Origin: a virus | DNA: 23,438 bases | IMG/VR virus record: IMGVR_UViG_3300032087_003036 | Coordinates: 1-23,438 of that record | Reading direction: 5' to 3' (one strand) | Shown here: in pieces, positions 7,494 to 22,759 of the stretch | How the letters are laid out: each line of letters opens with the position of its first letter | Position numbering within the stretch: position 1 is the stretch's first letter | Notes under the pieces: model-generated | Seen by the model: the letters and a program-made list of their open reading frames with translations, nothing else | Databases searched by the model: none | Told to the model about the DNA's origin: nothing | Position numbers and translations under genes: made by a program

Positions 7494-7829
7494 ATGGCTG
7501 ACCTAAACGTATTTAAAACAGTAACAAAGTCGATTGATACTAGTAATCAGACGATCTATACTGCGCCTTCAAACTATACTGGAATCGTGCTGTCTACTCA
7601 GATTGCCAATGCATCTGACTCAGACGCCACTCTGACATTTACATATCAGGACTCTGCCAGTGCAACTGCTGTAGAACTTCTTTCGCAGTTTGATATTCCA
7701 TCTCGAGACACAGCAAACGGTTCTGTAGGTAAACTGGTGATTACCGCAAACGGTATTCTCAAGATGACTTCTAATAAAGATGATAAGTTAAAACTGGTAA
7801 TGGGTGTACTGGAATCGCTCAATGGCTAA
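7494..7829 (+). CDS. Small beta-rich structural protein
   Basis: 111-residue protein, 2 bases after the preceding stop, with GAGGA at 7483-7487 as ribosome site 6 bases upstream of ATG. It is Thr/Ser/Ala-rich with alternating hydrophobic strands ('[20 protein letters not shown]', then '[18 protein letters not shown]') and no cysteine. The pattern 'iyt.p....givl..qian' with a polar beta-sandwich body is typical of short phage proteins encoded next to fibres, but I cannot name the family. Its stop codon lies inside the first codons of the giant fibre gene (8-base overlap), so translation of the two is probably linked and the products may associate. Confidence 0.75.
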
Positions 7830-10800
7830 AACAGAATCAAGACTCCTTAGCGGTCGTATTAAGACTAAAACTGGCAATAATCTAGACTCTAGAAGAAGTG
7901 CGTTCCTGAGTCTGGACAACGCTGAACCGAACTTTGGTAATCCCGATTCCGACCGTTATATTCTTGCTTCTCTTGCCGACGGTACACGTTTATTCTTAAA
8001 ACTCAATAAAGGATTTCTTGTCAGCGCAGACAGTGTAAGCGCAGACGAGTCTACCTTTGAGATTGATCCTTCTGGATTAACAAATGCTGCTGGTACTACT
8101 CTTGCAGAAGTATTAGATGATCTTGATTCTGCAATCAGTGATGCTCTTTTAAGTGGTGCTTTCCATGATGACAACTTTAATGGTTCTGGTACTGTTTCCG
8201 ACCCATTAACATTAGACTCTGACCTTCGGATCTTTGGCATTACAGGTGACTCTGCAACATTTACAAATATTACAAGAACAGGTACAACTGTAACTGCAGG
8301 AACTTATGGTTCTGTTACAGAGATTCCCGTCTTTACAGTTGATGCATCTGGATTTATTGATAGTATCGGTGAAGTCTCTATTAGCACAACCCTGAATACT
8401 TCTGGTGAAACAGGTACAGGTTCTGTAAGTCTACTTGATTCTTCACTGAATATTGCGGCAGGTGAAGGTATTAATACAGTAGCATCTGGTAATACTATTA
8501 CTGTATCTGGTGAAGATGCTAGTACAACAAATAAAGGTGTTGCTAATTTTGATTCTGGCGACTTCACAGTCAGTTCTGGATATGTTTCTGTAAAGACTAG
8601 TGGTATTGATAATGATCAGTTAGCAGGTAGTATTACTAACGATAAGTTAGTCAATACAACAATTAAATTAGGCAGCACTACAGTTGCTCTGGGCGATAGT
8701 TCTGATAATCTTACTATTGACTCTGCCGATATTACAAAATTAGATGTTTCGGGCACTGCTACTCTGGCGAGTGCTAGTGTCACTGACTTAACAAATGATA
8801 GAATTGTAGTCGCTGGGACTTCTGGTGAACTTGAAGATGATGCTAACCTGACATACGATGGTTCTACTTTAACTGTTGCTAATAATACAGCATCCACTAA
8901 CTCAGCAAGTGGCGCATTAGTTGTCACAGGTGGTGTAGGTATCGGCGGGGCCTTGAATGTCGGCGGAAACGTAGAAGTCAATGGCGATTTCACAGTCACT
9001 GGTACAACTACTACGATTGATGTACAAACATTAGCGATTCAAGATCCATTGATTCACCTTGCAGACTCTAACGAAACTGGCGATGAAGTTGATATTGGTT
9101 TTATTGGTCATTACTATGATGCTGCATTAGGTGGTAGACAGCATACAGGTCTGTTCAGAGACGCTACAGACGATAAGTACTACCTCTTTGCTCAATACCA
9201 AGACTCTGCTCTAGACTCTTCTCCTAGATCAAACGTCATTGATAGAAGTGATCCGTCTTTTGTATTAGCAGATTTTAATGCCGCTACTATAGTTGCAGAT
9301 ACATTCTCTGGAACAGTCAGCGCAGACTCTATCACCACAACAAACTTTACAGCAACAAGTGTAGACATTAATGGTGGTACGATCGATGGAACTACTATCA
9401 CAGTAGGCGCTACTAAAACTTTAGATGTATCTGCTGGAACACTGACTCTTGCTAATGATCAAATCTCTGGTGATAAAATTGAAGGTGGGGAGATTGGTAA
9501 TGTTACTATTACAAATCTCACCTCTGGCAATGTTAACATTGATGGCGGATTCATTGATGGTACTGCTATCGGACATTATACAGCAGACTCAGGCACGTTT
9601 ACTAATCTCGCCAGAACCTCTCCTGCTGGAGTGACAGCAGGTAGTTACGGTTCTGTAACAGAGATTCCAGTAGTTACTGTAGACGCTTCTGGTTTCATCG
9701 ACAGTATCGGTGAAGTTGCAATCAGCACGACTCTGAACACAGCAGCAGAGACTGGAACAGGAACAGTAAACCTGTTAGACTCTTCTCTTGAGATTGCTGC
9801 AGGTGAAGGTATCAATACCACTGCTTCTGGCAGAACAATTACAATCGCTGGTGAAGATGCAAGTACATCTAATAAAGGTATCGCTAGTTTTGATACAAAC
9901 GACTTTAGCGTATCTTCTGGTGCTGTTAGTATCAAGACTGCTGGTGTAGGAAATGATCAGTTAGAGTTTGACAGTGTAACAGTCACTGCAGGTTCCGGTC
10001 TTACAGGTGGGGGATCAGTTGCACTCGGCAGTTCAACTGAACTCAAACTAGACTCTGCTGCCGTCAAAGGTCTGTTCTCTAGTGGAGATAACATCAACTA
10101 TAACAGCACCACAGGTGAGATTGCTGTTGCCCTTAGTGGTGTTGTTGCAGGCACATATGGCACCTCCACAAAGATTCCAATTATTAGCGTTGACAGTTAT
10201 GGACAAGTTGATAGTATCGGCCTCGTTTCTGCTCAGGCGTCCTTGGGTGATACCATTGATAGTATCAATCACAACCCGATCACTGGTGAACTTAGAATTG
10301 TAACAGACATTGCTTCGTTCTTTACAGATATTGTTCTTGATCCATATACAACAGACAGTCTGTCCGAAGGCACGACTAATCTCTACTACACTAAGACCAG
10401 AGTAGACTCTGACATTGATCAGGCATTCAACGAGAATCCTTCTTTCGGTGGATCTGGCGCACCGTTCAGCGTAACATCTGATACACTTGTAACTAACCTG
10501 AACGCAGATAAACTCGATGGCATTTCAAGCGAATCTTTCTTGAGATCAGATGCTGCCGATATTAAGACATCCGGTGATCTTAGATTCAACGATAATGTTA
10601 AACTGACATTTGGTGCATCAGACGATCTACAAATCTATCATGATCAAACAAACAGTTACATTGAAGAGATCGGAACAGGTGATTTTAAGTTACTGACTAA
10701 TGGTCAGAGCATCATCTTAGAAGACTCGACTAACGAGAAAGTATCTGGTAAGTTTACTCCGGCAACTTCTGTAGAGTTATACTATGCAGGTAACAAGAAG

Positions 10801-13800
10801 TTTGAAACAAGTGCTACTGGCGTAACTGTAACTGGTGAAGTAGTAGCAGACTCCTCTACATTTACAAATATCACAAGAACTGGTACTACTGTAGTTGCGG
10901 GAACATATGGTTCTCAAACAGCTATTCCTGTTGTGACTATAGATGCATCTGGATTTGTAGACAGTATCGGAACTGAAGCGCTCAGTACAGTGCTTAGCAC
11001 TAGTGCAGAAACTGGCACAGGTTCAGTAAATCTTCTTGACTCTGCTTTAGAGATTGCAGCAGGTGTTGGTATCGACACTACTGCTTCTGGTAATACTGTT
11101 ACTGTAGAGATTGACTCCGGTGATCTTGCAGCATACTTTAGTAAAGTCATTGTTCACGATAATACAAATGGATTCGTTGCAGACGAACACGTAGCACACT
11201 CCGGTGTTAATATTACAGCGGGATCAGGTTTAACTGGTGGTGGTGATATAACTACTACCCGCACATTAAACGTTGGTGCCGGAACAGGAATCAGAGTAAA
11301 TACTGATGATGTAGAGATTGACTCCGCTGATCTTGCTGCTTACTACAGTAAAGTTATTAATCATGACAATACTTCTGGTTTCGTTGCTGATGAGCATGTA
11401 GCGCACTCTGGAGTTACTCTAACAGCTGGAAATGGATTAACTGGAGGCGGTACAATAGCTGCTAGCAGATCATTTGCTGTTGGTGAAGGTACAGGCATTA
11501 CAGTTGCAGCTGATACGGTTTCTACCAATGATGCTGAGATTGTTCACGATAATCTTTCTGGATTCGTCGCTAATGAACATATTGACCACTCTGGAGTCTC
11601 TATCACAGCAGGTAAAGGTCTAACTGGCGGTGGTGATATTACATCAAGTCGTGTTATTGACATTGACTCTGCCAACGTCCGTGGAATGTTCAGTGGCGGT
11701 ACTGGAATAACCTATAATAGCGGAACAGGTGAGTTTACAACTACAGATGGCGAGATTGTTCACGATAATCTTTCTGGATTTGTAGGAAACGAACATATCG
11801 ACCACTCTGCAGTTAGTATCACAGCAGGTAATGGATTAACTGGTGGTGGTGATATTACCTCTACTAGAACATTAAACGTTGTCGGCGGTGATGGTATCAC
11901 TGCTAATGCAGATGAGATTGAAGTTACTGTTGATGATGCTACTATTGAACTATCTGCTACTGATGGTTCTGGTGCAGTCAGAGTAAAAGATGGCGGTATC
12001 ACTAACACCAAACTTCAGTATGACTCATCCACAATCGGTACTACTTCTATTGTTCTCGGTGGATCTACTACTACACTTGCTGGTCTTACTCAAGTAGATA
12101 TCGACAATGTTCGTATTGATGGGAATACCATCAGTACTACTGGTGGGTCTTACATGTATATTGACCCGCATCCTACAGACAGTGCTGGTACTCTTGTTAT
12201 TCTTGGTAACTTACAGGTAGACGGTGAAACGACAACAATTCAATCGTCCACTGTAACTATCAGCGATAAGAATATTGTTCTTGCAGACTCTGCTACTACA
12301 AACGCACAGGCAAATGGTGCAGGGATTACTGTAAACGGATCGAATGCCACTATTACATACGATGGTAGCACTGACAGATGGGACTTTAATAAAGATATTG
12401 AAGTTTCTACTGTACATGGCGCTCTGTCCGGCAACGCTTCAACTGCGAGTGCGCTGTCAAGTGCTGTTACTGTTCAGCTTAGTGGAGATGTTTCTGGTAG
12501 TGCAACATTTACTAGTGCAGGTGATACTGCAAACATTTCTACTACTATTCAACCAAACTCTGTTGCTCTTGGCGATGACACTACTGGTAACTATGTCGCA
12601 TCTCTTGTAGCTGGTAATCTGATTGACTTACAAAACAACTCAGGTGAAAACGCTACTCCTACAATTGATGTTGACCTATCAGAACTCACTGATATGACTG
12701 ATGCTGCTGTAGGAACAGATGAGTTAGTCATATTAGATGCTGGTTCTCAGAAAAGAAAAGCAATCAATGAAATAACTCTTGGATTGTTCAACACTACTAA
12801 TCAGATTGTTCTTGGCGACGATACAACAGGTAACTATGTACAACAAGGTACTACAAGTGGTAATGGTATAAGTGGTAGTGTTAATTCAGAGGGTGGCACA
12901 TTTACCGTAACATCAAACGCCACAAATGCAAATACTCCAAGCACTATTGTATTTAGAGACGGTTTAGGTAACTTTTCTGCAGGAACTATTACTGCTGCAC
13001 TCTCGGGTAACGCTTCAACTGCAACTGCTTTAGCATCATCACAAAACTTTAGTCTCACAGGAGACGTAACAGCATCAGCAGTGAGTTTTGATGGTACAGG
13101 CGCTGTTCAGCTAACTACTGCTTACAATCCCGGTTCTATCGTAAATGATGACATTAATACATCTGCTGGAATTGTAGACACTAAACTCGCCACGATTAGC
13201 ACTGCTGGTAAAGTAGCAAATTCAGCAACAACTGCAACTAATGCAAATACAATTAATGCTATTGTGGCTAGAGATGCTTCTGGTAATTTCTCAGCAGGAA
13301 CCATTACTGCTTCACTCTCAGGTAATGCTACAACTGCCACAACTGCAACTAATGTTACTGCGACTGCAAATAACTCTACCGATGAAACTGTTTACTTGAC
13401 ATTTGTAGATGGTGCAACTGGTTCTCAAGGTATTGAAACTGATACTGGATTAACATATAATCCATCAACCGGACTCATCACCTCTACTGCATTTAGTGGT
13501 AATTTAACAGGAAATGTTACAGGTAACGCTTCAACTGCAACTGCTTTAGCATCATCACAAAACTTTAGTATAAGTGGCGATATTACTGCAGCGGCGGTAG
13601 GATTCGATGGAACTGGAGCGGTCACATTAAGTGCTGCTATTACATCTGGTTCTATCGTAAATGATGACATTAATGCATCTGCCGCAATTGCAGATACTAA
13701 ACTTGCAACAATTAGTACAGCAGGTAAAGTTTCTAACTCTGCCACAACTGCAACTAATGCAAATACAATTAATACTATTGTAGCAAGAGACGGTTCTGGC

Positions 13801-14892
13801 AACTTCTCTGCTGGCACAATCACTGCCACATTAAGCGGTAATGCCACCACTGCCACTAACGCCACCAACTCTACTAATGTTGCTATCACCAACGATACTA
13901 CTACCAACTCTACTCACTATGTCCACTTTGGAGATGCAACTTCTGGTAATGATGGAGTAAAGGTATCTAATTCTAAATTGACCTTCAATCCTTCTAGTGG
14001 TGTCTTGAGTGTAAACGGTGTATCTGTAGCAACTACTGCTGATCTGACTGCAGCAAGCAGTCCAAACTTCTCGGTAGACTCTGCTAACTTCGGAACAGCA
14101 AATTCGTTTACTATCGGTGAAGGTAAGGCAGTTTACTATGACACTGGAACGAGTAAGTGGGAAGGTGCATATAACGACTCTACAGGCGAGTATACTGCAT
14201 CTCACGTTATTGTTGATATGGCAGCCACAGATGTAAAGATCGCCTCGACTGGTATCTTTACTCTTTCAGGCGGACTGTCTGCAAACAATTATTATTTCTT
14301 ATCTTCCACAGCAGGTACAGCAACAAACGATCCAGATTCCTCTCCTACTGCATGGCAACCTTTATACTATGCTTTAGATGCAAATACGATTGATCTGCAA
14401 ATTCAGACTCCAGAAGATACTGTCATTACCACTTTTGGTAGTGATGGTTCTATTAACGATGCTACTGCAACAAGATATTTCTCTGCGTATGCTAATGCTA
14501 TTACTAGTACCTTAACAGGTACTTATGCTATTGTTCCTATCGATACTGAATTAGCATCTAGGGCATCTGCTTTCAGTTTAAGTGGTGGTAGAGTAACAGT
14601 AAACTATGCTGGTACATACACGATCACTTATGATGTAACAACTAATAATATATCTGGGGCCGCAAGATCAGATACAAGTGCCATATTATATAAAAATGGA
14701 TCAGCAGTTACAGGAACTGAATCCAGAATGTATAATAGAGTTGCGGGTGTAGGCGAGTCCACTGGTACTGCTACTGTTATTTTAACTTTAGCAGCAAATG
14801 ATATTATTGATGTTAGAGCCGCTCTAAACAGCGGTACTGATACTGTAGTAACCCTAGCAGATGCATGTAGATTGACAATTACGGAAATTTAA
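7822..14892 (+). CDS. Giant mosaic tail fibre protein with C1q-like tip (2356 aa)
   Basis: I start it at ATG 7822 ([20 protein letters not shown]), not the GTG at 7804. The ATG overlaps the upstream gene by 8 bases, and the sequence after it matches N-termini of cyanophage fibre proteins ('[20 protein letters not shown]'). The protein is Thr/Ser/Gly/Asp-rich, without cysteine-rich or membrane segments. It is modular. '[10 protein letters not shown]...[11 protein letters not shown]' blocks begin at residues 146, 592 and 1013. '[20 protein letters not shown]' is near 370, and '[16 protein letters not shown]' near 934. Four 'HDN..GFVA.EH..HS' blocks begin at 1112, 1181, 1242 and 1314. A '[17 protein letters not shown]' block is near 1460. 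'[10 protein letters not shown]...LSGNA' blocks span about 1700-2010. The last ~140 residues ('[20 protein letters not shown] ... [11 protein letters not shown] ... [10 protein letters not shown]') fit a C1q/TNF-like trimeric jelly roll, likely the receptor-binding tip. Probably a long trimeric fibre. Confidence 0.85.
8257..11109 (+). repeat. Dispersed coding repeat, three copies in the giant fibre
   Basis: A block of about 122 residues beginning 'FTN.(T/A)R' and containing '([11 protein letters not shown])...LLDSS...IAAGEGI' occurs at 8257-8622 and 9595-9963, and in shortened form at 10858-11109. A fragment of the same type ([20 protein letters not shown]) lies near 10147-10205. The copies have diverged at DNA level, pointing to old duplication rather than recent slippage. 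Confidence 0.8.
11155..11889 (+). repeat. Four imperfect coding repeats (HDN..GFVA.EH..HS) in the giant fibre
   Basis: Copies begin at 11155, 11362, 11545 and 11761, spacings 207, 183 and 216 bases. Each has an HDN-GFV-EH-HS core followed by '[13 protein letters not shown]' and a short variable tail. The conserved His residues (about five per unit) are striking in a fibre and could bind metal ions at the trimer axis. The module is familiar from other marine phage fibres. Confidence 0.8.
12922..13853 (+). repeat. 516-base tandem duplication within the giant fibre
   Basis: Three separate stretches are identical at a constant offset of 516 bases (172 codons): 13006-13053 with 13522-13569 (48 bases), 13132-13158 with 13648-13674 (27 bases), and 13228-13257 with 13744-13773 (30 bases). 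The unit codes for '[18 protein letters not shown]' followed by 'GSIVNDDIN' and '[10 protein letters not shown]'. A further related '[10 protein letters not shown]' half-unit begins at 12922, and a more diverged 'LSGNASTA' copy is near 12424. The long identical blocks indicate a relatively recent in-frame duplication. Confidence 0.9.
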
Positions 14893-14953: not shown

Positions 14954-16294
14954 ATGTTAGATAATACCAGTTATGATGAGGACTACGATTCTATGATTAC
15001 CGCACCTAGACCAAAACCTGCAGAAACAGATTTGAAAGATCATTATAAAAAGACAAGTCATGCTTTTGAAGAGAATGGGTATCTCATTCTAAATAATGCT
15101 CTACCTAGAGAAAAATGTGATGAGTTAGTTCAACACATGTTTGATCTGGAAAAAGAGGGAAAACTTGTTCAAGATTCTCAATGCCCTCTTTCCGGTGCAA
15201 TCTATGGAGATCCACAGTTTGATGCGCTGCTAGAAGGATTTCGTGAAGGTATTGGTCAACAGGTAGGTAAAGAACTTCTTCCAACTTATACCTATGCTCG
15301 ACTCTATAGACCCGGAGAGGAACTGAAGAGACATAAGGATCGTCCTTCATGTGAGATTTCTGCTACACTGACTTTGGGTTATGATGAGTCTAAACCAGTA
15401 TGGCCAATCTATTTCGATGAAGATAAAGAGGTAAGAGTAAACCTTGATGTTGGAGAACTGGCGATTTATAAAGGATGTGAGGTAGAGCACTGGCGTCCTA
15501 AGTTTAAAGGTAACTGGCAGGTTCAAGTTTTCTTACACTTTGTAGATGCTAACGGACCATATAAGGATCATGCTACAGATGGTCGTGGTCAACTCGGCGT
15601 TCCAAAAGAGCATAGTGAAAATGGTAAAAGACCTCCTGATTTTTTCAGTGGCGTCAATTTCAATGGTGTGCTCTTACCTAAGACCGCAAAGCAGATCAAC
15701 TTCCCCGGATATGTTAGTATGAACTCTGAACATAATTCTCACCTTACTTTTAGCAAGGAAGAATGTGAGAAGATCATTGCGCTTTCAGAAGATGATTATG
15801 GTGGAACTGCTTCTATCGGTTCTGGTGGAGTATTTACGTCTAAAGTTTCTAGAGAGATTAGATCAGCGACAGTATATAATATTACTCCAAGCGAGGAAAC
15901 AGCATGGATATGGGATAAAGTCTGCCATATCGTTGCGCTTGCAAACGAGCATCACTTTAGATACGACATCAGTCATATTGAGCATGAACTGCAACTGATT
16001 CACTATAAGTCTGACGAGAAAGTTCCGGGACATTATAACTGGCATATTGATGCTGGTCCGGGAACCTCTGCTACTCGTAAGATTTCTTTTACAGCACAGT
16101 TATCTGATCCGAATGAATATACTGGTTGTGACCTTTTAATTCGTAACCAAGGTGATAAAGAGTTTCAGGCAGTTAGAGAGCAAGGTTCTATCTCTTTGTT
16201 CCCAAGTTATATGCCTCACTGTGTCTCCTCTATTGAAAGCGGCGAGAGATATGCTCTGGTGATTTGGGTTCATGGTGATATGCCTTTCAGATAA
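14954..16294 (+). CDS. Tandem (double-domain) 2-oxoglutarate/Fe(II)-dependent oxygenase
   Basis: 446-residue protein with two non-identical cupin oxygenase domains. Domain 1 (about 30-200) has 'YTYARLYRPGEELKRHKDRP' with HxD at H127/D129, a distal His H179 in 'EVEHWR' and a possible 2OG ligand R181. Domain 2 (about 260-440) is prolyl-4-hydroxylase/PiuC-like, with 'GHYNWHIDAGPG' giving H364/D366, distal H422 in 'SYMPHCV', and R432 in 'GERYALVIWVHG'. Both iron triads look intact, so both domains may be active. Such enzymes hydroxylate protein or small-molecule substrates using 2-oxoglutarate and O2. The gene sits between the giant fibre and the repeat adhesin, so a fibre or surface substrate is a reasonable inference; no collagen-like G-X-Y tract exists in the window to serve as obvious target. 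An AGAGGA lies 13 bases upstream of the ATG, rather far, so the start is less certain. No exact late promoter precedes it. Confidence 0.88.
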   Translation: MLDNTSYDEDYDSMITAPRPKPAETDLKDHYKKTSHAFEENGYLILNNALPREKCDELVQHMFDLEKEGKLVQDSQCPLSGAIYGDPQFDALLEGFREGIGQQVGKELLPTYTYARLYRPGEELKRHKDRPSCEISATLTLGYDESKPVWPIYFDEDKEVRVNLDVGELAIYKGCEVEHWRPKFKGNWQVQVFLHFVDANGPYKDHATDGRGQLGVPKEHSENGKRPPDFFSGVNFNGVLLPKTAKQINFPGYVSMNSEHNSHLTFSKEECEKIIALSEDDYGGTASIGSGGVFTSKVSREIRSATVYNITPSEETAWIWDKVCHIVALANEHHFRYDISHIEHELQLIHYKSDEKVPGHYNWHIDAGPGTSATRKISFTAQLSDPNEYTGCDLLIRNQGDKEFQAVREQGSISLFPSYMPHCVSSIESGERYALVIWVHGDMPFR

Positions 16295-16297
16295 TTA

Positions 16298-16305
16298 TAT
16301 AAATA
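16298..16305 (+). promoter_or_regulatory. T4-type late promoter
   Basis: Exact TATAAATA, 3 bases after the TAA stop (16292-16294) of the oxygenase gene and 32 bases before the ATG at 16338. The leader contains TTTTCTAAAGG at 16320-16330, nearly the same as in the gp13 leader, which includes the ribosome site. It would drive the adhesin and the 314-aa gene. Confidence 0.85.
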
Positions 16306-16337: not shown

Positions 16338-19304
16338 ATGGCGAGAAATAATAAAACTTTTCTTAACAAAAGAACTTTAATTGGACGGAACTCTGTCGGA
16401 CTTCATGCTCTGGACGATTCTGCTGAAACATACCTTAAATTAGCTGATTCTGATTCGGTTAAAACTGTTTCTGGGTTTCCGGGTGCAAATATTCTAGATG
16501 GGTCCATTTCTCCTACTGCCATTAGCAACCAATCAGATTTGATCACTTCTGCAGGTGGACTCACTTCTATTGGGGTTTTAAATTCAGCAATTAATACTAG
16601 AACCAGTAATATGAATTGGGAAAAGGGTATTGATGACACTGCGATCGGATTACCCATACAGACACTTCCCGTTGACGGCACTACCAACCCGGCCTCCAGT
16701 ATACCCAGCCCCATCAATGAGAATTTTCATCTTGAATATCCTTTGAGTATTGGTAGGTCTACCTATCTTTTTGGAGATCAAGATGTATCATCAACATACG
16801 AAAATTATCCCAGAACCAGTCCAGCCAGCGCTCCAGCTGATTTCACACCTGTTACGACTTCTCATTCGAACAGCTATAAAACTTTCTCTCCAGTAATTAT
16901 GGGGCATAATGGGTTTTATGGCTTTACCACAATGCCGCAGGAACCGAACGGATGGAATTCGACGAATCCTGGCACCGATGCGGGACTGTTCAGATACATT
17001 TTTGGTGGAACTGATCCAGCTGGACCGCAACAATTAGCTAATGTTCCATCTTATGGCGGTCAACAAAACTCTCAATATTCTGGATCCATTACCTCTATGC
17101 ACCCGGCGATGGGATCTCCTCCTGAAAAACCAGGAGATCCCTCAACTCCTAGTTATCCAGCAGTGTCATCTCATATGCTTTATGCAGTTCCTACTGCAGA
17201 ACCCAGCGGAACTGATGCTCCATTAGCTGCATATACCACTCATGATGCATCTCCTTTTAAAACTCCTGGAGCACGAACTTACAACGAATTTGTTTTTATT
17301 CAAGGCATTAAAGAACCCGGAACAACACCTGCTCCTACTCTTTATACAACAATCCCCGGAAGCGCAGGAGGATTTAGGGTCAATTTAAAAGGTCAAAGTG
17401 TAACGACAAGGGAAACCCTCGACATTCTTGGTGGCGGGCATGGCGATATAGGAGACGCTGTACAGGAGTTTAGGGTTTGGGAAGAGGTTCCTGTACCATT
17501 AGCATCTCAGTCTCTACCAGATGTTGATGGAACTATAATTAACGTAGCAAAAATAGATTCTATGAGCGAATCTGACATTAACACCACCGTAGGCGGAGTT
17601 TTTGATGGTTGGGCATATATGAATAACTTACATGCCGATGCGATTCAAGGGACCGATGACGAGTCGATGGTCGGCCGACCCAATGATTTTTTAAGAGTTG
17701 GATGGACCGCTCAGGAGGGCGTGCAGCCTGACCCGACAGCGCCGGCCCCCCAAGAAGATAATTCTAGAAGGGAAAGATTAATTGGAGGGGTGGACGTTGA
17801 TATAACAGAGACGTCATATACTGATGTTCTTAATCAAATGATTATTCATAAAGGGTTTGAGGTTGGTATGCCTAGAGAGCATAAGATTGCTATGCCAACG
17901 ACCCCTTCAGACTACAGGTATGAAGCCCCCTTAAATTCTTGGAGACATAACAATGCTCTTCGGTTTGATTTTAGAACAAAATCTGATAATCCCGGATACA
18001 CTCCAGTAGTCAGCTCAAGTTCTAGACTTTCTCCTAGAGTACATTTTAGATATATGTATCATTCTCCAGAAGCTGGTGGAGTTTTCGGCGTCATTGCAGG
18101 TGGAACTGGCGCAGGTGGCGGTGATATGCTGACTGAAGGTAGGAACCACGGACCCGGTTTACGGCAAACTTTTAATTTTGCGAATAACGTCTCTAGAATT
18201 ATTGGAGAGTGGAACAACCCGGCCGGTGCCACCACTAACATTGGAAGGGTTGAGAGCGATGTTGCGAGTGCTACTATTGCGCAGAATATTGGTATGAAAG
18301 GTAGTAGTTCTCCTACTGTAGCATATTTCCATGGATATACTACTGGAAGCTTGGCGGAACCGACTGTGCCCCGCCCTGCTGATAATCATCCTTTTGAGCG
18401 GACAGGAAGTGCCGTTCCAAGAGAAAAATGGGGTAGATACACTGAGAAATTCCCATTCCAAGCTGTAGCTGATGTAGTAATCGCAGGTAATGAACTGTTT
18501 TACTGGAGAAGAGGCGGCATGTCATCTTACTCCACTGACGTTTCTTATTTGAGTGGCGGGTATATCCGCACTCCTGATTCCGGAACAGTTCCATCCAATG
18601 AATCCGGTCCAGTATACAACGACCGACAAAGGGGCGAGAGACAAAAAATGCCGCACTCGACAGAAACTTGGTCTGCGGTACCGGGTAATATGACTAACTA
18701 TGGACATTTTGGTAATGCAATCAGTGGAACGGATCAGGTTTCTTATAATTTTCCAGGAACACAGCACGATCTCGACTTCGGCGACCCCGGCCGGGTAGCG
18801 AATAGTCCCGGAACTAGAGAAAGGTTCCCATTTGCAACAGAAACTTTAATTAATGACGGATTAGTTTCTCAAAAGGTATTAGCCAGAGCATCTCTCGTAT
18901 CTCCAACTAAAGGGTTTCTTTTTGAAGGGTTTAATAATCAAGCATACCCTGATACGACAAGTCCAGCCGGCCCGAATGGACCAGAGAGTAACAGTGGAAG
19001 ACGAGTCGTTGAAAAATTCCCGTTTGCAACAGGAACCGCTGTAAACTGGGATCCGGGTGGATTAGACCACCGTTGGGGTCATGTAGGTATATCATCAACG
19101 CAAGGTAGAGGATACCTTATGACAGGTCGAACGCCGGTCAACACGACCGATTATATTACGCATCTACCGGGATTGCCAGATTTGGCCGGTGGTACTGGTG
19201 GGAGTCAGATAAATTTAATTGCATCTGATGGATCAAATATTTACAGGCATGATATGGGGTTATCCGCTGCAACAACAATGTTTGCTGATAAAGCTCAAGT
19301 ATAA
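16338..19304 (+). CDS. Large putative adhesin/fibre protein with ~63-residue propeller-like repeats
   Basis: 988-residue protein with ribosome site AAAGG 7 bases before ATG. The first 65 residues ('TFLNKRTLIGRNSVGLHALD', then YLKLADSDS) resemble the short N-terminal attachment region of marine phage fibres. The rest is Gly/Pro/Ser/Thr-rich with many aromatic residues. In the C-terminal third, motifs of the form EKFPFA recur at residues 703, 769 (QKMPHS), 828 (ERFPFA) and 892 (EKFPFA), about 59-66 apart, with 'hGy..g'-like ends between them. This recalls kelch/RCC1-like beta-propeller repeats found in phage proteins with 'dKFpFa...GdL' units. Base use differs visibly from neighbours (many CCGG, GGCC and CCC runs, e.g. 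near 17740-17755 and 18783-18796), suggesting separate origin or fast exchange. It has its own late promoter. Best guess: host-recognition adhesin; I do not recognise the middle region. Confidence 0.75.
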   Translation: MARNNKTFLNKRTLIGRNSVGLHALDDSAETYLKLADSDSVKTVSGFPGANILDGSISPTAISNQSDLITSAGGLTSIGVLNSAINTRTSNMNWEKGIDDTAIGLPIQTLPVDGTTNPASSIPSPINENFHLEYPLSIGRSTYLFGDQDVSSTYENYPRTSPASAPADFTPVTTSHSNSYKTFSPVIMGHNGFYGFTTMPQEPNGWNSTNPGTDAGLFRYIFGGTDPAGPQQLANVPSYGGQQNSQYSGSITSMHPAMGSPPEKPGDPSTPSYPAVSSHMLYAVPTAEPSGTDAPLAAYTTHDASPFKTPGARTYNEFVFIQGIKEPGTTPAPTLYTTIPGSAGGFRVNLKGQSVTTRETLDILGGGHGDIGDAVQEFRVWEEVPVPLASQSLPDVDGTIINVAKIDSMSESDINTTVGGVFDGWAYMNNLHADAIQGTDDESMVGRPNDFLRVGWTAQEGVQPDPTAPAPQEDNSRRERLIGGVDVDITETSYTDVLNQMIIHKGFEVGMPREHKIAMPTTPSDYRYEAPLNSWRHNNALRFDFRTKSDNPGYTPVVSSSSRLSPRVHFRYMYHSPEAGGVFGVIAGGTGAGGGDMLTEGRNHGPGLRQTFNFANNVSRIIGEWNNPAGATTNIGRVESDVASATIAQNIGMKGSSSPTVAYFHGYTTGSLAEPTVPRPADNHPFERTGSAVPREKWGRYTEKFPFQAVADVVIAGNELFYWRRGGMSSYSTDVSYLSGGYIRTPDSGTVPSNESGPVYNDRQRGERQKMPHSTETWSAVPGNMTNYGHFGNAISGTDQVSYNFPGTQHDLDFGDPGRVANSPGTRERFPFATETLINDGLVSQKVLARASLVSPTKGFLFEGFNNQAYPDTTSPAGPNGPESNSGRRVVEKFPFATGTAVNWDPGGLDHRWGHVGISSTQGRGYLMTGRTPVNTTDYITHLPGLPDLAGGTGGSQINLIASDGSNIYRHDMGLSAATTMFADKAQV
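18441..19150 (+). repeat. Degenerate ~190-base coding repeats (KFPFA units)
   Basis: Unit starts lie near 18444, 18642, 18819 and 19011 (spacings about 198, 177 and 192 bases), each marked by [EQ][KR][FM]P[FH][AS-Q] and followed by a Gly-rich stretch with aromatic residues. DNA identity between units is low, so these are old, structure-maintained repeats. A weaker candidate unit (QTFNFANN) is at about 18165. Confidence 0.6.
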
Positions 19305-19327: not shown

Positions 19328-20272
19328 ATGAATGAAGATAATAATGAAATTTCTTTAACTGAAAATAATAATGCTCTCTCTTTAGTTGATGATCTCACGA
19401 AGAGTTTATCTCGGTCAGAAGAACCTCCGGCGATGTCTTTTCCAGAGGTTTTAGAAAAGGCAGAGTTAGCGGATATTCATAGTTTTGGTGATAAGACCTT
19501 TGGAGAAAATTCAGCTCTAGTAGAGCAGGCATTTAAAAATACTGACGATTTGGCAGCATTATTTAACAGAGGTCACAATCAGTGGATCTGGAAACATATT
19601 AACATGTCAAACTTTAGTGATTATTATAATGTTAGGCAGGTTTACAATGAAATCTCTCATAAGAAACGAAACTTAAATGAAGCCAAGTGGAGGTTTTTAA
19701 AATACAAAGCAAAAATGCAGAAAACTTATGAAGAATTGGAAGATGAAAACCTTTCTAAATGGGAGAGGTTTGATATTACTGTAAAACTGGCCCAACATCA
19801 TGAGATTGCTGAAGAAAACAGACTCGCTGCTGAAGGAGCTATGAAAGATGTCCTAGCCCTTAATGAAATTTATGAAGAACTCAAGACTAAAATTAATGGA
19901 TTTGATGAACACGACTTTGAAAAGCAAGAACCAATCGGTCATCTAAAGAGAAGTTTAACCCAGTCCCTTAGAGATATTCGTATGACGGGGAGAATTAGTA
20001 AAGGCGAACAGGAATATCTTGAGCAATGCGGAGCGAATGTTAGCAAAATTCAAAAACTATTAATCGAGTTTTGTGATCAGGAGCAGGAGTCTGAATCTTG
20101 GGATAATGTTTTACAACTCGAATTTATTGATAAACTTGCACATGAACTTGTTGAAGTGCATAAGGTTAGCGAGAAAAGAGCCAACTGGCACGGATTCAGC
20201 GATATTCCGATAGAAGATTTCTCTATTAGAAATAAAGTCGCTTTACTGACATCCGAAGAAAAAGATTTATAA
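19328..20272 (+). CDS. Mostly helical, coiled-coil protein of unknown function at the wac position
   Basis: 314-residue protein; AGGA at 19314-19317 lies 10 bases before the ATG, and a TATAATA-like run in the short gap is not a full late octamer. Residues 1-75 are acidic and probably flexible. A conserved-looking aromatic segment follows ('LFNRGHNQWIWKHINMSNFS', 78-97). Residues 100-190 form a long charged helix with heptad character ('NLNEAKWRFLKYKAKMQKTY ... IYEELKTKIN'), and 200-285 contain further helices. No signal peptide or membrane segment. It lies directly upstream of gp13, the place of fibritin (wac) in T4, but no fibritin foldon-like C-terminus is visible. It could be a whisker-like coiled coil, a fibre assembly chaperone, or unrelated. 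I do not recognise a family. Confidence 0.7.
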   Translation: MNEDNNEISLTENNNALSLVDDLTKSLSRSEEPPAMSFPEVLEKAELADIHSFGDKTFGENSALVEQAFKNTDDLAALFNRGHNQWIWKHINMSNFSDYYNVRQVYNEISHKKRNLNEAKWRFLKYKAKMQKTYEELEDENLSKWERFDITVKLAQHHEIAEENRLAAEGAMKDVLALNEIYEELKTKINGFDEHDFEKQEPIGHLKRSLTQSLRDIRMTGRISKGEQEYLEQCGANVSKIQKLLIEFCDQEQESESWDNVLQLEFIDKLAHELVEVHKVSEKRANWHGFSDIPIEDFSIRNKVALLTSEEKDL

Positions 20273-20306: not shown

Positions 20307-21059
20307 ATGGCTACACCAAGTACAAGAGACCAACTGATAGATCATTGTCTAAGAAGACTTGGCGCACCTGTTATTGAAATCAATGTAGATATTGACCAGC
20401 TGGAAGATAGAACAGACGACACTCTTCAACTCTATCAGGAGTATCATTCTGATGCGGTTGTTAGGACGTTTCTGAAGCATCAGGTCACATCTACAGATAT
20501 TTCTAATGGTTATATCACTGTAGATGATAGTATCATTTATGTCAAGAGACTTTTTATGGTCAGAGGTTCAGGCAATTCTGCAGGAATGTTTGACATTAAA
20601 TATCAAATGTCCTTGAATGATATTTATGATCTTAACACCTATATTGGTGATCTTGCCTACTATGAACAGACAAAGCAATATCTTTCTTTGTTAGATGCAA
20701 AGTTGACTGGGTATCCACATATTGATTTCAATAGACATCAGAACAGAGTTTATATTCATGGCAAGTTTTCTGATCAGGATATTTTAGAAGATGATTATAT
20801 CGTCTTTGAAACTTTCAAGATTGTAGACCCAGAAACTCATACTGATGTTTATAACGATCTGTTTGTGAAAGAGTATTTGACACAGGCGATTAAACAGCAG
20901 TGGGGAGCAAATCTGATTAAGTTTGAGGGTATGCAACTTCCCGGTGGCGTTACATTGAACGGTAGACAAATATATGATGATGCAACTCAAGAGATGCTTA
21001 GATTAGAAGAAAAACTGCGTAATACATACGAGTTGCCTGTTGACTTTTTTGTAGGATAA
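20307..21059 (+). CDS. gp13: Neck protein gp13
   Basis: 250-residue protein matching the marine T4-like gp13 pattern: 'STRDQLIDHCLRRLGAPVIE', then 'DDTLQLYQEYHSDAVVRTFL', 'YITVDDSIIYVKRLF', and a C-terminus 'LPGGVTLNGRQIYDDATQEM' ending in LPVDFFVG. In T4, gp13 with gp14 completes the head and forms the neck that joins the filled capsid to the tail. It is first in a run of five closely spaced genes behind its own late promoter, with a good Shine-Dalgarno (AAGGA). Length and gene order fit cyanophage gp13. Naming rests on recognition of sequence and on synteny with the following genes. Confidence 0.9.
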   Translation: MATPSTRDQLIDHCLRRLGAPVIEINVDIDQLEDRTDDTLQLYQEYHSDAVVRTFLKHQVTSTDISNGYITVDDSIIYVKRLFMVRGSGNSAGMFDIKYQMSLNDIYDLNTYIGDLAYYEQTKQYLSLLDAKLTGYPHIDFNRHQNRVYIHGKFSDQDILEDDYIVFETFKIVDPETHTDVYNDLFVKEYLTQAIKQQWGANLIKFEGMQLPGGVTLNGRQIYDDATQEMLRLEEKLRNTYELPVDFFVG

Positions 21060-21063
21060 TGTA

Positions 21064-21951
21064 ATGGCTACCAATCTCTACTTTAGTCAATCAGTCAAAT
21101 CAGAGCAAGACTTATATGAAAACATTGTCATCGAATCTCTCAAGATGTATGGGCAAGATGTTTTCTATATGCCCAGAACACTTGTAGCAGAAGATAAAAT
21201 CTTTGGCGAAGATGTCGCTTCAAAGTTTGAAGATGCTTACAAGATTGAAATGTATCTGGAGAATATTGACAACTTTGACGGTGATCAAGAACTCTTTACA
21301 AAGTTTGGTGTAGAGATTAGAGACAGAGCAACACTGCATGTATCTAGAAGAAGATGGCAAGAAGTAGCATTCGATCATTCCTCTTCTCAGGTAAGACCAA
21401 ATGAAGGTGACTTGATTTATCTTCCATTGTCAGATCAAATCTTTGAAATCATGCGAGTGATTGATGATCAACCATTCTATCAGTTATCGAATCTCCCAAC
21501 ATTCCGTATGGAGATTGAACTGTTTGAATACAATGATGAAGACTTTGATACAGATATTCGTGTCATCGACGAAATTGAGCAGAATTATGCTTACCAGTAT
21601 ATTCTGACTCTTACAGATAGTTCTTATCCTAATGATATATTGCAGACTGGAACAACTATTCAGCAAGGTCTTGCCAATGACGTAACCATTTCTGGTGAGA
21701 TTGCTAAGTGGAACGATAGTTCTAACGAGTTGTCGCTTGTTCATCTTGGTGCGGACGATGGTAAGTATCACCTCTTTACAACAGGCAATATCACTAATAT
21801 TACTGAATTCAATGACAGCGCAACCTACACAGTGGTCTCTGTCAGAGAAAACAATCTGATTCAAACTACACAGCAGAATACTTTCTTTGAAACAGAAGGC
21901 GATAATATTATTGACTTCAGTGAAGGTAATCCATTCGGAGAGGTGACATAA
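21064..21951 (+). CDS. gp14: Neck protein gp14
   Basis: 295-residue protein, 4 bases after the gp13 stop, with AGGA just upstream. The N-terminus is characteristic of marine T4-like gp14: 'NLYFSQSVKSEQDLYENIVI', 'YGQDVFYMPRTLVAEDKIFG' and 'FTKFGVEIRDRATLHVSRRR'. gp14 acts with gp13 in the neck, sealing the head after packaging and docking the tail. A central acidic segment (about 155-180) and a Ser/Thr-rich region (about 195-245) follow, and the protein ends 'DFSEGNPFGEVT'. The order gp13-gp14-gp15 as in T4 supports the assignment. Confidence 0.92.
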   Translation: MATNLYFSQSVKSEQDLYENIVIESLKMYGQDVFYMPRTLVAEDKIFGEDVASKFEDAYKIEMYLENIDNFDGDQELFTKFGVEIRDRATLHVSRRRWQEVAFDHSSSQVRPNEGDLIYLPLSDQIFEIMRVIDDQPFYQLSNLPTFRMEIELFEYNDEDFDTDIRVIDEIEQNYAYQYILTLTDSSYPNDILQTGTTIQQGLANDVTISGEIAKWNDSSNELSLVHLGADDGKYHLFTTGNITNITEFNDSATYTVVSVRENNLIQTTQQNTFFETEGDNIIDFSEGNPFGEVT

Positions 21952-21952
21952 T

Positions 21953-22759
21953 ATGTTTAATCAACACTTCTACCATGAAAAGATCAGAAAGTGTGTTGCT
22001 GTATTCGGAACACTATTCAATAATATCTACCTGCTGAGAAAAGACTCCAGTGGTAATGTAATTAGTCAAATCAAAGTTCCTCTGAGTTATTCTCCAAAGC
22101 AGAAGTTCTTAGATCGTATTCGTGAAACAGCAGACATGGCAGATGCTAAACTGGCAATCAAACTCCCTAGAATGGGATTTGAAATGTCTTCTCTTTACTT
22201 TGACCCTACTAGACAATTACCAAAGACAAATAGTTTTACCAAGAATATTATAACAGATAATAATAAAAAGACAAAGTTTTTTACTTCTGTTCCATATATT
22301 CTTAATTTTCAGTTGAATATTTTAGCAAAAACGAATGAAGATGCTGTTCAAATACTTGAGCAGATTTTACCATTCTTCAATCCTTCTTATACAATTACGA
22401 TGAAACAGTTTAGCGATTATCCAGATATTACCGAGGATATTCCTATTTCTTTAATCGGTATTTCATTTACAGATGATTATGAAGGTTCTTTGGAGAATAG
22501 AAGAACAATTATATATACATTAGACTTTGAACTCAAAACAAGTTTCTTTGGTCCGATTGCTGACAGTTCTATCATTCGTAAGGCGATTGTTGACTTTAGG
22601 GACCCAGATGTACCTACTGTCGGTTCTTACAGTCTTACAGATTCGGATAATCTGTTCGAACGTATTATTGTTGAACCTGATCCATTGAATGTCAATCCAG
22701 ACAGTGATTATGGATTTACTGAGACGTTTATTATTCCAGGCGAGGGGGATAGTGCATAA
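21953..22759 (+). CDS. gp15: Tail sheath stabiliser / tail completion protein gp15
   Basis: 268-residue protein, 1 base after the gp14 stop, with GAGGTGA at 21938-21944 as ribosome site within gp14. Typical gp15 features: 'NQHFYHEKIRKCVAVFGTLF', 'KVPLSYSPKQKFLDRI' and 'AIKLPRMGFEMSSLYFDPTR', then a long beta-rich domain with 'IPISLIGISFTDDYEG'. T4 gp15 forms the hexameric ring that terminates the tail tube and sheath and provides the head-binding surface; T4 gp15 is 272 residues, so the length fits. The TAA stop overlaps the ATG of the next gene by one base. Confidence 0.93.
   Translation: MFNQHFYHEKIRKCVAVFGTLFNNIYLLRKDSSGNVISQIKVPLSYSPKQKFLDRIRETADMADAKLAIKLPRMGFEMSSLYFDPTRQLPKTNSFTKNIITDNNKKTKFFTSVPYILNFQLNILAKTNEDAVQILEQILPFFNPSYTITMKQFSDYPDITEDIPISLIGISFTDDYEGSLENRRTIIYTLDFELKTSFFGPIADSSIIRKAIVDFRDPDVPTVGSYSLTDSDNLFERIIVEPDPLNVNPDSDYGFTETFIIPGEGDSA

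Follow-up and report, generated by a model that had tools for sequence, protein, structure and literature searches.

A double 2OG/Fe(II) oxygenase forms part of a swappable adhesin cassette in T4-like marine phages

A protein carrying two 2OG/Fe(II) oxygenase domains is, in a group of T4-like marine phages, part of a swappable cassette, which consists of this double oxygenase, one or more adhesins built from a KFPF-containing repeat and a conserved protein designated Q. The stretch of DNA analysed here (the window), a virus record 23,438 bases long, comes from such a phage. Among the genes of marine phages that lack an explanation, 2OG oxygenases rank with the most frequent, and their functions have so far been guessed from metabolism or DNA repair. 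Our analysis extends the known phage 2OG oxygenases by a well-conserved double form located in a swappable adhesin cassette. Because this form is repeatedly gained and lost together with one adhesin family and Q, a concrete and testable substrate can be proposed for one oxygenase subclass; the evidence points to the adhesin or a partner as substrate rather than to general metabolism.

The enzyme is encoded by an open reading frame of 446 amino acids (14954..16294, + strand) with an ATG start and zero internal stops, and was defined by the ORF call, Pfam and PHROG families and an AlphaFold2 model. The first-pass annotation had claimed two different oxygenase domains with intact triads in one protein, and H127/D129/H179 and H364/D366/H422 were found exactly as named there. 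The N-terminal domain comprises residues 38-216 (15065..15601, +; profile span, PHROG, AlphaFold2, Foldseek). It contains the iron ligands H127-x-D129 (15332..15340, +), invariant in relatives, and the distal histidine H179 (15488..15490, +), which in the alignment of relatives is followed by an invariant R181. The C-terminal domain comprises residues 266-441 (15749..16276, +) and is 2OG-FeII_Oxy_3/PKHD-like according to Pfam and to PDB matches by sequence. Its iron ligands H364-x-D366 (16043..16051, +), the distal histidine H422 (16217..16219, +) and R432, ten residues past H422 (16247..16249, +), are likewise invariant in relatives. The position of R432 is presumably that of the residue usually binding the 2OG carboxylate in this superfamily. 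The two domains are joined by a variable linker (15602..15748, +) of low model confidence, the length of which differs among relatives.

In family searches the C half passed the Pfam family 2OG-FeII_Oxy_3 (PF13640) with 46 bits against a cut-off of 27, its closest PDB entries by sequence being PKHD hydroxylases such as PiuC, together with P4H. The N half gave zero Pfam matches even at E<=10 and matched phrog_2954 instead (E 3.5e-44, PHROG search).

AlphaFold2 modelling of the whole chain with 44 relatives gave a mean pLDDT of 85.9, with values >90 over most of both domains, and the N domain modelled alone reached 93.8. In agreement with the earlier claim, each half is confidently predicted to adopt the double-stranded beta-helix (DSBH) fold of these oxygenases (AlphaFold2, Foldseek). 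Residues 221-235 and 237-241 have pLDDT values under 50; because of this floppy linker (221-241) and a pTM of 0.55, the relative placement of the two domains is not fixed by the model. Foldseek returned P. putida P4H, PHD2 and a viral collagen prolyl hydroxylase as best PDB matches of the N domain (TM about 0.6-0.7), which places it in the prolyl-hydroxylase fold class (P4H/PHD). The best match of the whole chain was Tpa1/OGFOD1 with an rmsd over 20 A, and thus not a rigid whole-chain match.

The HxD...H iron triad typical of the 2OG/Fe(II) superfamily is present in both domains and conserved in relatives. Among the fused proteins of the window's own class (class A, 39 distinct proteins) it is invariant in each domain (39/39), and in the fused proteins of class B it is kept in 36/36 N domains and 34/34 C domains. 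N domains encoded by single genes retain H127 and D129 in 92/92 cases and H179 in 91/92 (one gap). Every C domain covering the respective columns, including about 90 single genes, retains H364, D366, H422 and R432. R181 is invariant in essentially all N domains; R116, R181, Q191 and H195 are invariant or nearly so, none of them at the usual 2OG-carboxylate position. The iron ligands are thus not lost in relatives, and the first observation of a double oxygenase is confirmed and strengthened.

The N domain belongs to a family, phrog_2954 or cyanophage cluster T4-GC 615, that is labelled ferrochelatase in GenBank records, PHROGs and papers. No match to ferrochelatase PF00762 was obtained at E<=10 among the N-family members scanned with Pfam, and the N profile found zero ferrochelatase chains in PDB at E<=10. 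Given these results and the predicted oxygenase fold, the ferrochelatase reading of the N half was rejected. Judged from profiles and fold prediction, phrog_2954/T4-GC 615 is a putative 2OG/Fe(II) oxygenase family, not a ferrochelatase, and the name is evidently wrong. Apart from the domain in the window (15065-15601), the members called ferrochelatase include L060:12765-13535, L061:12518-13126 and L064:12369-12959. Phage 'ferrochelatase' has been treated as a haem/iron auxiliary metabolic gene, and its co-occurrence with a 2OG oxygenase has been reported (PMC9599517, PMC11561400). With phrog_2954 being a predicted oxygenase, this co-occurrence would represent two paired oxygenases, and haem/iron interpretations in recent ecological papers resting on the name 'ferrochelatase' need correction.

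Several known systems resemble the window protein in part. Members of the N domain's own family in cyanophages and pelagiphages share the invariant HxD...H and HWR motifs, but they are usually stand-alone genes adjoining a 2OG oxygenase gene, whereas the window domain is fused. The C domain matches PKHD-type hydroxylases (PiuC/YbiX, PF13640) by sequence; it lies, however, far below the NCBIfam equivalog cut-offs, is fused to a second oxygenase and is linked to an adhesin. P. putida P4H and PHD2, whose solved folds are most similar to the N domain, show only 12-20% identity to it and have a single catalytic domain. In contrast to these enzymes, the N domain carries the invariant R181 two residues past the distal histidine, and the position ten residues past this histidine is neither Arg nor Lys in the window protein. 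The ribosomal prolyl hydroxylases OGFOD1/Tpa1 likewise contain two DSBH domains per chain and are of the prolyl-hydroxylase class, but the C domain of OGFOD1 is devoid of metal ligands (PMC4396695), while the window protein keeps both sets and its domain packing is not superposable. Membership in the OGFOD1/Tpa1 double-DSBH family was therefore rejected. The two-domain oxygenase genes of S-SCSM1 (PMC9602691) and the 362-aa 'ferrochelatase' of ACG-2014f are tandem enzymes with the same N-then-C order as in the window; they differ in that their fusions belong to another lineage of the N-domain tree and lie outside any KFPF/Q cassette.

Separate, adjoining genes encode the two domains in the majority of phages, often with C before N. 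This applies e.g. to Mosig, S-MbCM6, S-SSM5 and HTVC033P, in which the C-type gene precedes the N-type gene, opposite to the order in the fusion. In the tree of N domains, a single supported clade unites the fusions of class A with the shorter ones of class B and includes a few later splits, and the fusions of S-SCSM1, S-T4 and ACG-2014f are placed outside this clade. The tree thus suggests that the fusion arose at least twice. From the repeated fusion and the occurrence of the genes in either order we infer that the two domains act jointly. Two of the loci (L005:131-1319, L009:5788-8375) contain C-type genes and an additional stand-alone N gene beside the fused one, i.e. several paralogous oxygenases can coexist.

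The genomic surroundings differ within the family. Class B fusions are located in a tail module that includes a tape-measure protein, where they immediately follow a tail-fibre gene. The N-only gene of S-E7 lies far from fibre genes beside clamp-loader genes, and some N-only relatives adjoin DNA methylase and clamp-loader genes. The family members of S-PM2 and S-RIM32 follow a helicase gene, and the ACG-2014f fusion, also far from fibre genes, adjoins ribonucleotide reductase. The link to fibres is hence strong for class A and common, but not universal, across the family. A cellular relative of the N domain was found in Brasilonema (L160:7968-8639) inside a PKS/NRPS-type gene cluster, so that the substrates of the N-domain family may also include small molecules or molecules bound to a carrier.

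In the window, the enzyme gene is placed, as claimed by the first-pass annotation, between a 2362-aa fibre-like protein (7804..14892, +), which shows a weak C1q-like C terminus below the cut-off, and a 988-aa repeat protein (16338..19304, +). The latter is a kelch-like adhesin with degenerate KFPF motifs at residues 704, 829 and 893, and its N-terminal 65 amino acids exhibit 48% identity with the KFPF adhesin of locus L002. The third cassette gene encodes Q, here a conserved protein of 314 amino acids (19328..20272, +). It is followed by the neck genes Ad2 and Hc2 and the tail sheath stabiliser (gp15-like), which form the backbone of the swap (20307..22759, +; PHROGs) and close the right end of the window together with the small terminase. 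Exact TATAAATA octamers, the core of the T4 late promoter, occur at positions 2779, 4940, 16298 and 20268, all on the + strand and about 30-90 bp before gene starts (4 in the window compared to a chance mean of 1.85). They precede the adhesin gene (T4-type late-promoter-like octamer at 16298..16305, +), the neck genes and two genes of the fibre region. Their position shortly before these genes is consistent with late expression.

A repeat about 47 residues long recurs in the neighbours of class A enzymes, with the consensus GYxSGGxxPxxxNxIDKFPFAxDxNATDVGDLTxxRxxxAGQSS. About six such repeats are found per protein of about 330 amino acids; they are kelch-like in length and in their GG motif, suggesting a propeller fold for the adhesin. 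A KFPF adhesin is present at 54/55 fused class A loci versus 0/37 fused class B loci. The sole class A exception, L004, has a 1103-aa kelch-like, Gly-rich neighbour. When, as a control for selection, only class A representatives found via the oxygenase were counted, 12/13 contained the KFPF adhesin. In the reverse test, starting from loci selected by the adhesin, an N domain is present in 61/100 KFPF loci, and in most of those lacking it the contig ends early on one side. The long KFPF records L196 and L250 carry the N domain not nearby but elsewhere on their own contig. Two further KFPF-bearing records are without an N domain (L207, 65.6 kb; L254, 74.9 kb), both of them fragments.

Q comprises about 310 amino acids with a mean column identity of 63% over seven members, and is present at 47/55 class A loci. 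In sequence searches Q reached no Pfam cut-off, matched no PHROG and gave no convincing hit in PDB. At every Q locus lacking the N domain, the contig ends within a few kb on the side where the enzyme would be expected.

In the fused classes, a fibre-like ORF of any kind adjoins the enzyme no more often than the within-locus control predicts for these fibre-rich loci, and such adjacency provides no evidence of linkage; weight attaches to the linkage with KFPF and Q. Of the fibre linkage proposed earlier, the part that stands is accordingly a strong link with the downstream kelch-like KFPF adhesin and Q rather than with the giant fibre. The two-step chemistry and the hiding of fibres from host defence that the first-pass annotation also suggested gained no support. 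Gly-rich tail-fibre neighbours were rejected as specific partners because they are as frequent in control loci. Collagen-type G-X-Y repeats were discarded as substrate in the window fibres, the longest run being 9 aa.

To account for shared ancestry, a control was anchored on gp15 (56-100% identity), the gene of which follows that of the enzyme at a distance of about 5.7 kb; only loci with enough upstream sequence were scored for their cassette state. Enzyme, adhesin and Q are all present in the window, L002, L073, L260, L287 and L004, the last with its divergent adhesin. In the remaining gp15 loci all three are absent, and other adhesin modules occupy the same site in these sister phages. In the cassette-free group neither the N domain nor Q was detected in whole records of up to 147 kb. 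The gp15 tree shows six changes of the cassette state, at least five of them on supported branches. L073, which has the cassette, and L263, which does not, are 99.3% identical in gp15. The all-or-none state and the at least five switches on the gp15 tree indicate that the cassette is swapped as a unit. This joint gain and loss is to be read as a pattern and not as formal proof, since the pairs are few (with five independent pairs, p of the sign test cannot fall below 0.06) and the co-presence of enzyme and Q defined the groups.

Hydroxylation of the adhesin is the best-supported function of the double oxygenase, although unproven. We give roughly even odds to a two-site protein oxygenase that serves a swappable host-recognition cassette by hydroxylating the adhesin repeats or Q. 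Such a two-site 2OG/Fe(II) enzyme of the prolyl-hydroxylase structural class would be made late, together with the virion proteins, and would act ahead of or during assembly by hydroxylating Q or repeat residues of the freshly synthesised adhesin. Its two active sites might serve two separate positions or consecutive repeats; because the repeats offer many equivalent target sites, an enzyme with two active sites would fit the adhesin. Candidate residues are the Pro of KFPF, Lys, Asp or Asn, all of which appear conserved enough (Pro 82%, Lys 94%, Asn 87%, Asp positions 78-86%). The modification may affect folding or receptor binding of the adhesin, and Q might be a helper or structural protein. 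The broader proposal of a dedicated, horizontally swapped protein-hydroxylation system, in which a two-headed oxygenase modifies adhesin repeats and so finishes receptor-binding proteins, is more tentative. If it is true, infectivity would hinge on the oxygen, iron and 2-oxoglutarate available during virion assembly. No report of phage adhesin hydroxylation was found in the open literature.

Alternatively, the enzyme might travel with the adhesin cassette and act on the host, its target being a surface component or a protein (e.g. a translation factor) matched to the recognised host. A swap of the adhesin is a swap of host range, so host-specific functions would travel along with it; moreover, P. 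putida P4H, the nearest solved fold, was crystallised with EF-Tu, and the Brasilonema relative makes small-molecule substrates conceivable in this family. Class A is, however, tied to one repeat family and Q and not to many adhesin types, and sister phages carry other adhesin modules at the same site without the enzyme, which makes this explanation rather unlikely. We give less credence still to only one domain being catalytic and the other serving for docking or as a scaffold, as in OGFOD1/Tpa1. It is suggested by the whole-chain Foldseek match and by the OGFOD1 C-terminal DSBH lacking metal ligands (PMC4396695). Against this, both triads and R432 are invariant in the 39 distinct proteins of class A and in about 35 of class B, unlike in a decaying domain, each domain also exists as a stand-alone gene, and the large rmsd argues against a rigid match.

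A role as auxiliary metabolic gene, which draws down or senses 2-oxoglutarate or iron and thereby steers nitrogen or haem metabolism of the host, has been proposed for cyanophage 2OG oxygenases (PMC3037559) and is implied for the phage 'ferrochelatase' (PMC9599517, PMC11561400). Such a role would not need joint gain and loss with one adhesin and Q, and the missing ferrochelatase homology in Pfam and PDB also speaks against it, so that we regard it as improbable. A nucleic-acid repair or hypermodification enzyme of the AlkB or TET type is the least probable alternative and highly unlikely. Very weak Tet matches were obtained (N profile, E 0.31; L063, E 0.0016, below the cut-off), and the DNA methylase and clamp-loader neighbours of some N-only relatives would agree with it, but the best folds are protein prolyl hydroxylases and class A sits in a late structural cassette.

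A comparison of repeats with and without a nearby enzyme did not single out a target residue within the adhesin, P, K and N being the same in both. The Asp positions 28 and 31 differ, but the control set comprises only 47 repeats from 3 loci, and among these L196 and L250 have the enzyme farther along the record. Tandem arrays of KFPF adhesins of about 330 aa each were detected in L192, L154, L155 and L243, with up to nine adhesins beside one double oxygenase (L192), perhaps providing an adhesin repertoire for recombination or switching.

A second kelch-like family, with repeats ending WNGTSWTEVNDL (phrog_27227), is located within a few kb of separate C and N genes at L133:3050-4876 and similarly at L124, L132, L136, L140 and L141; one KFPF adhesin also matches phrog_27227 weakly. 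As a general partner of the oxygenases this family was dismissed because it is confined to 8 split pelagiphage-like loci. In Synechococcus phage S-SKS1 (L186:6818-10666) an N-type oxygenase, broken-looking C-type pieces and a kelch-like repeat ORF occur together, near metabolic genes with a sulfotransferase and away from gp15.
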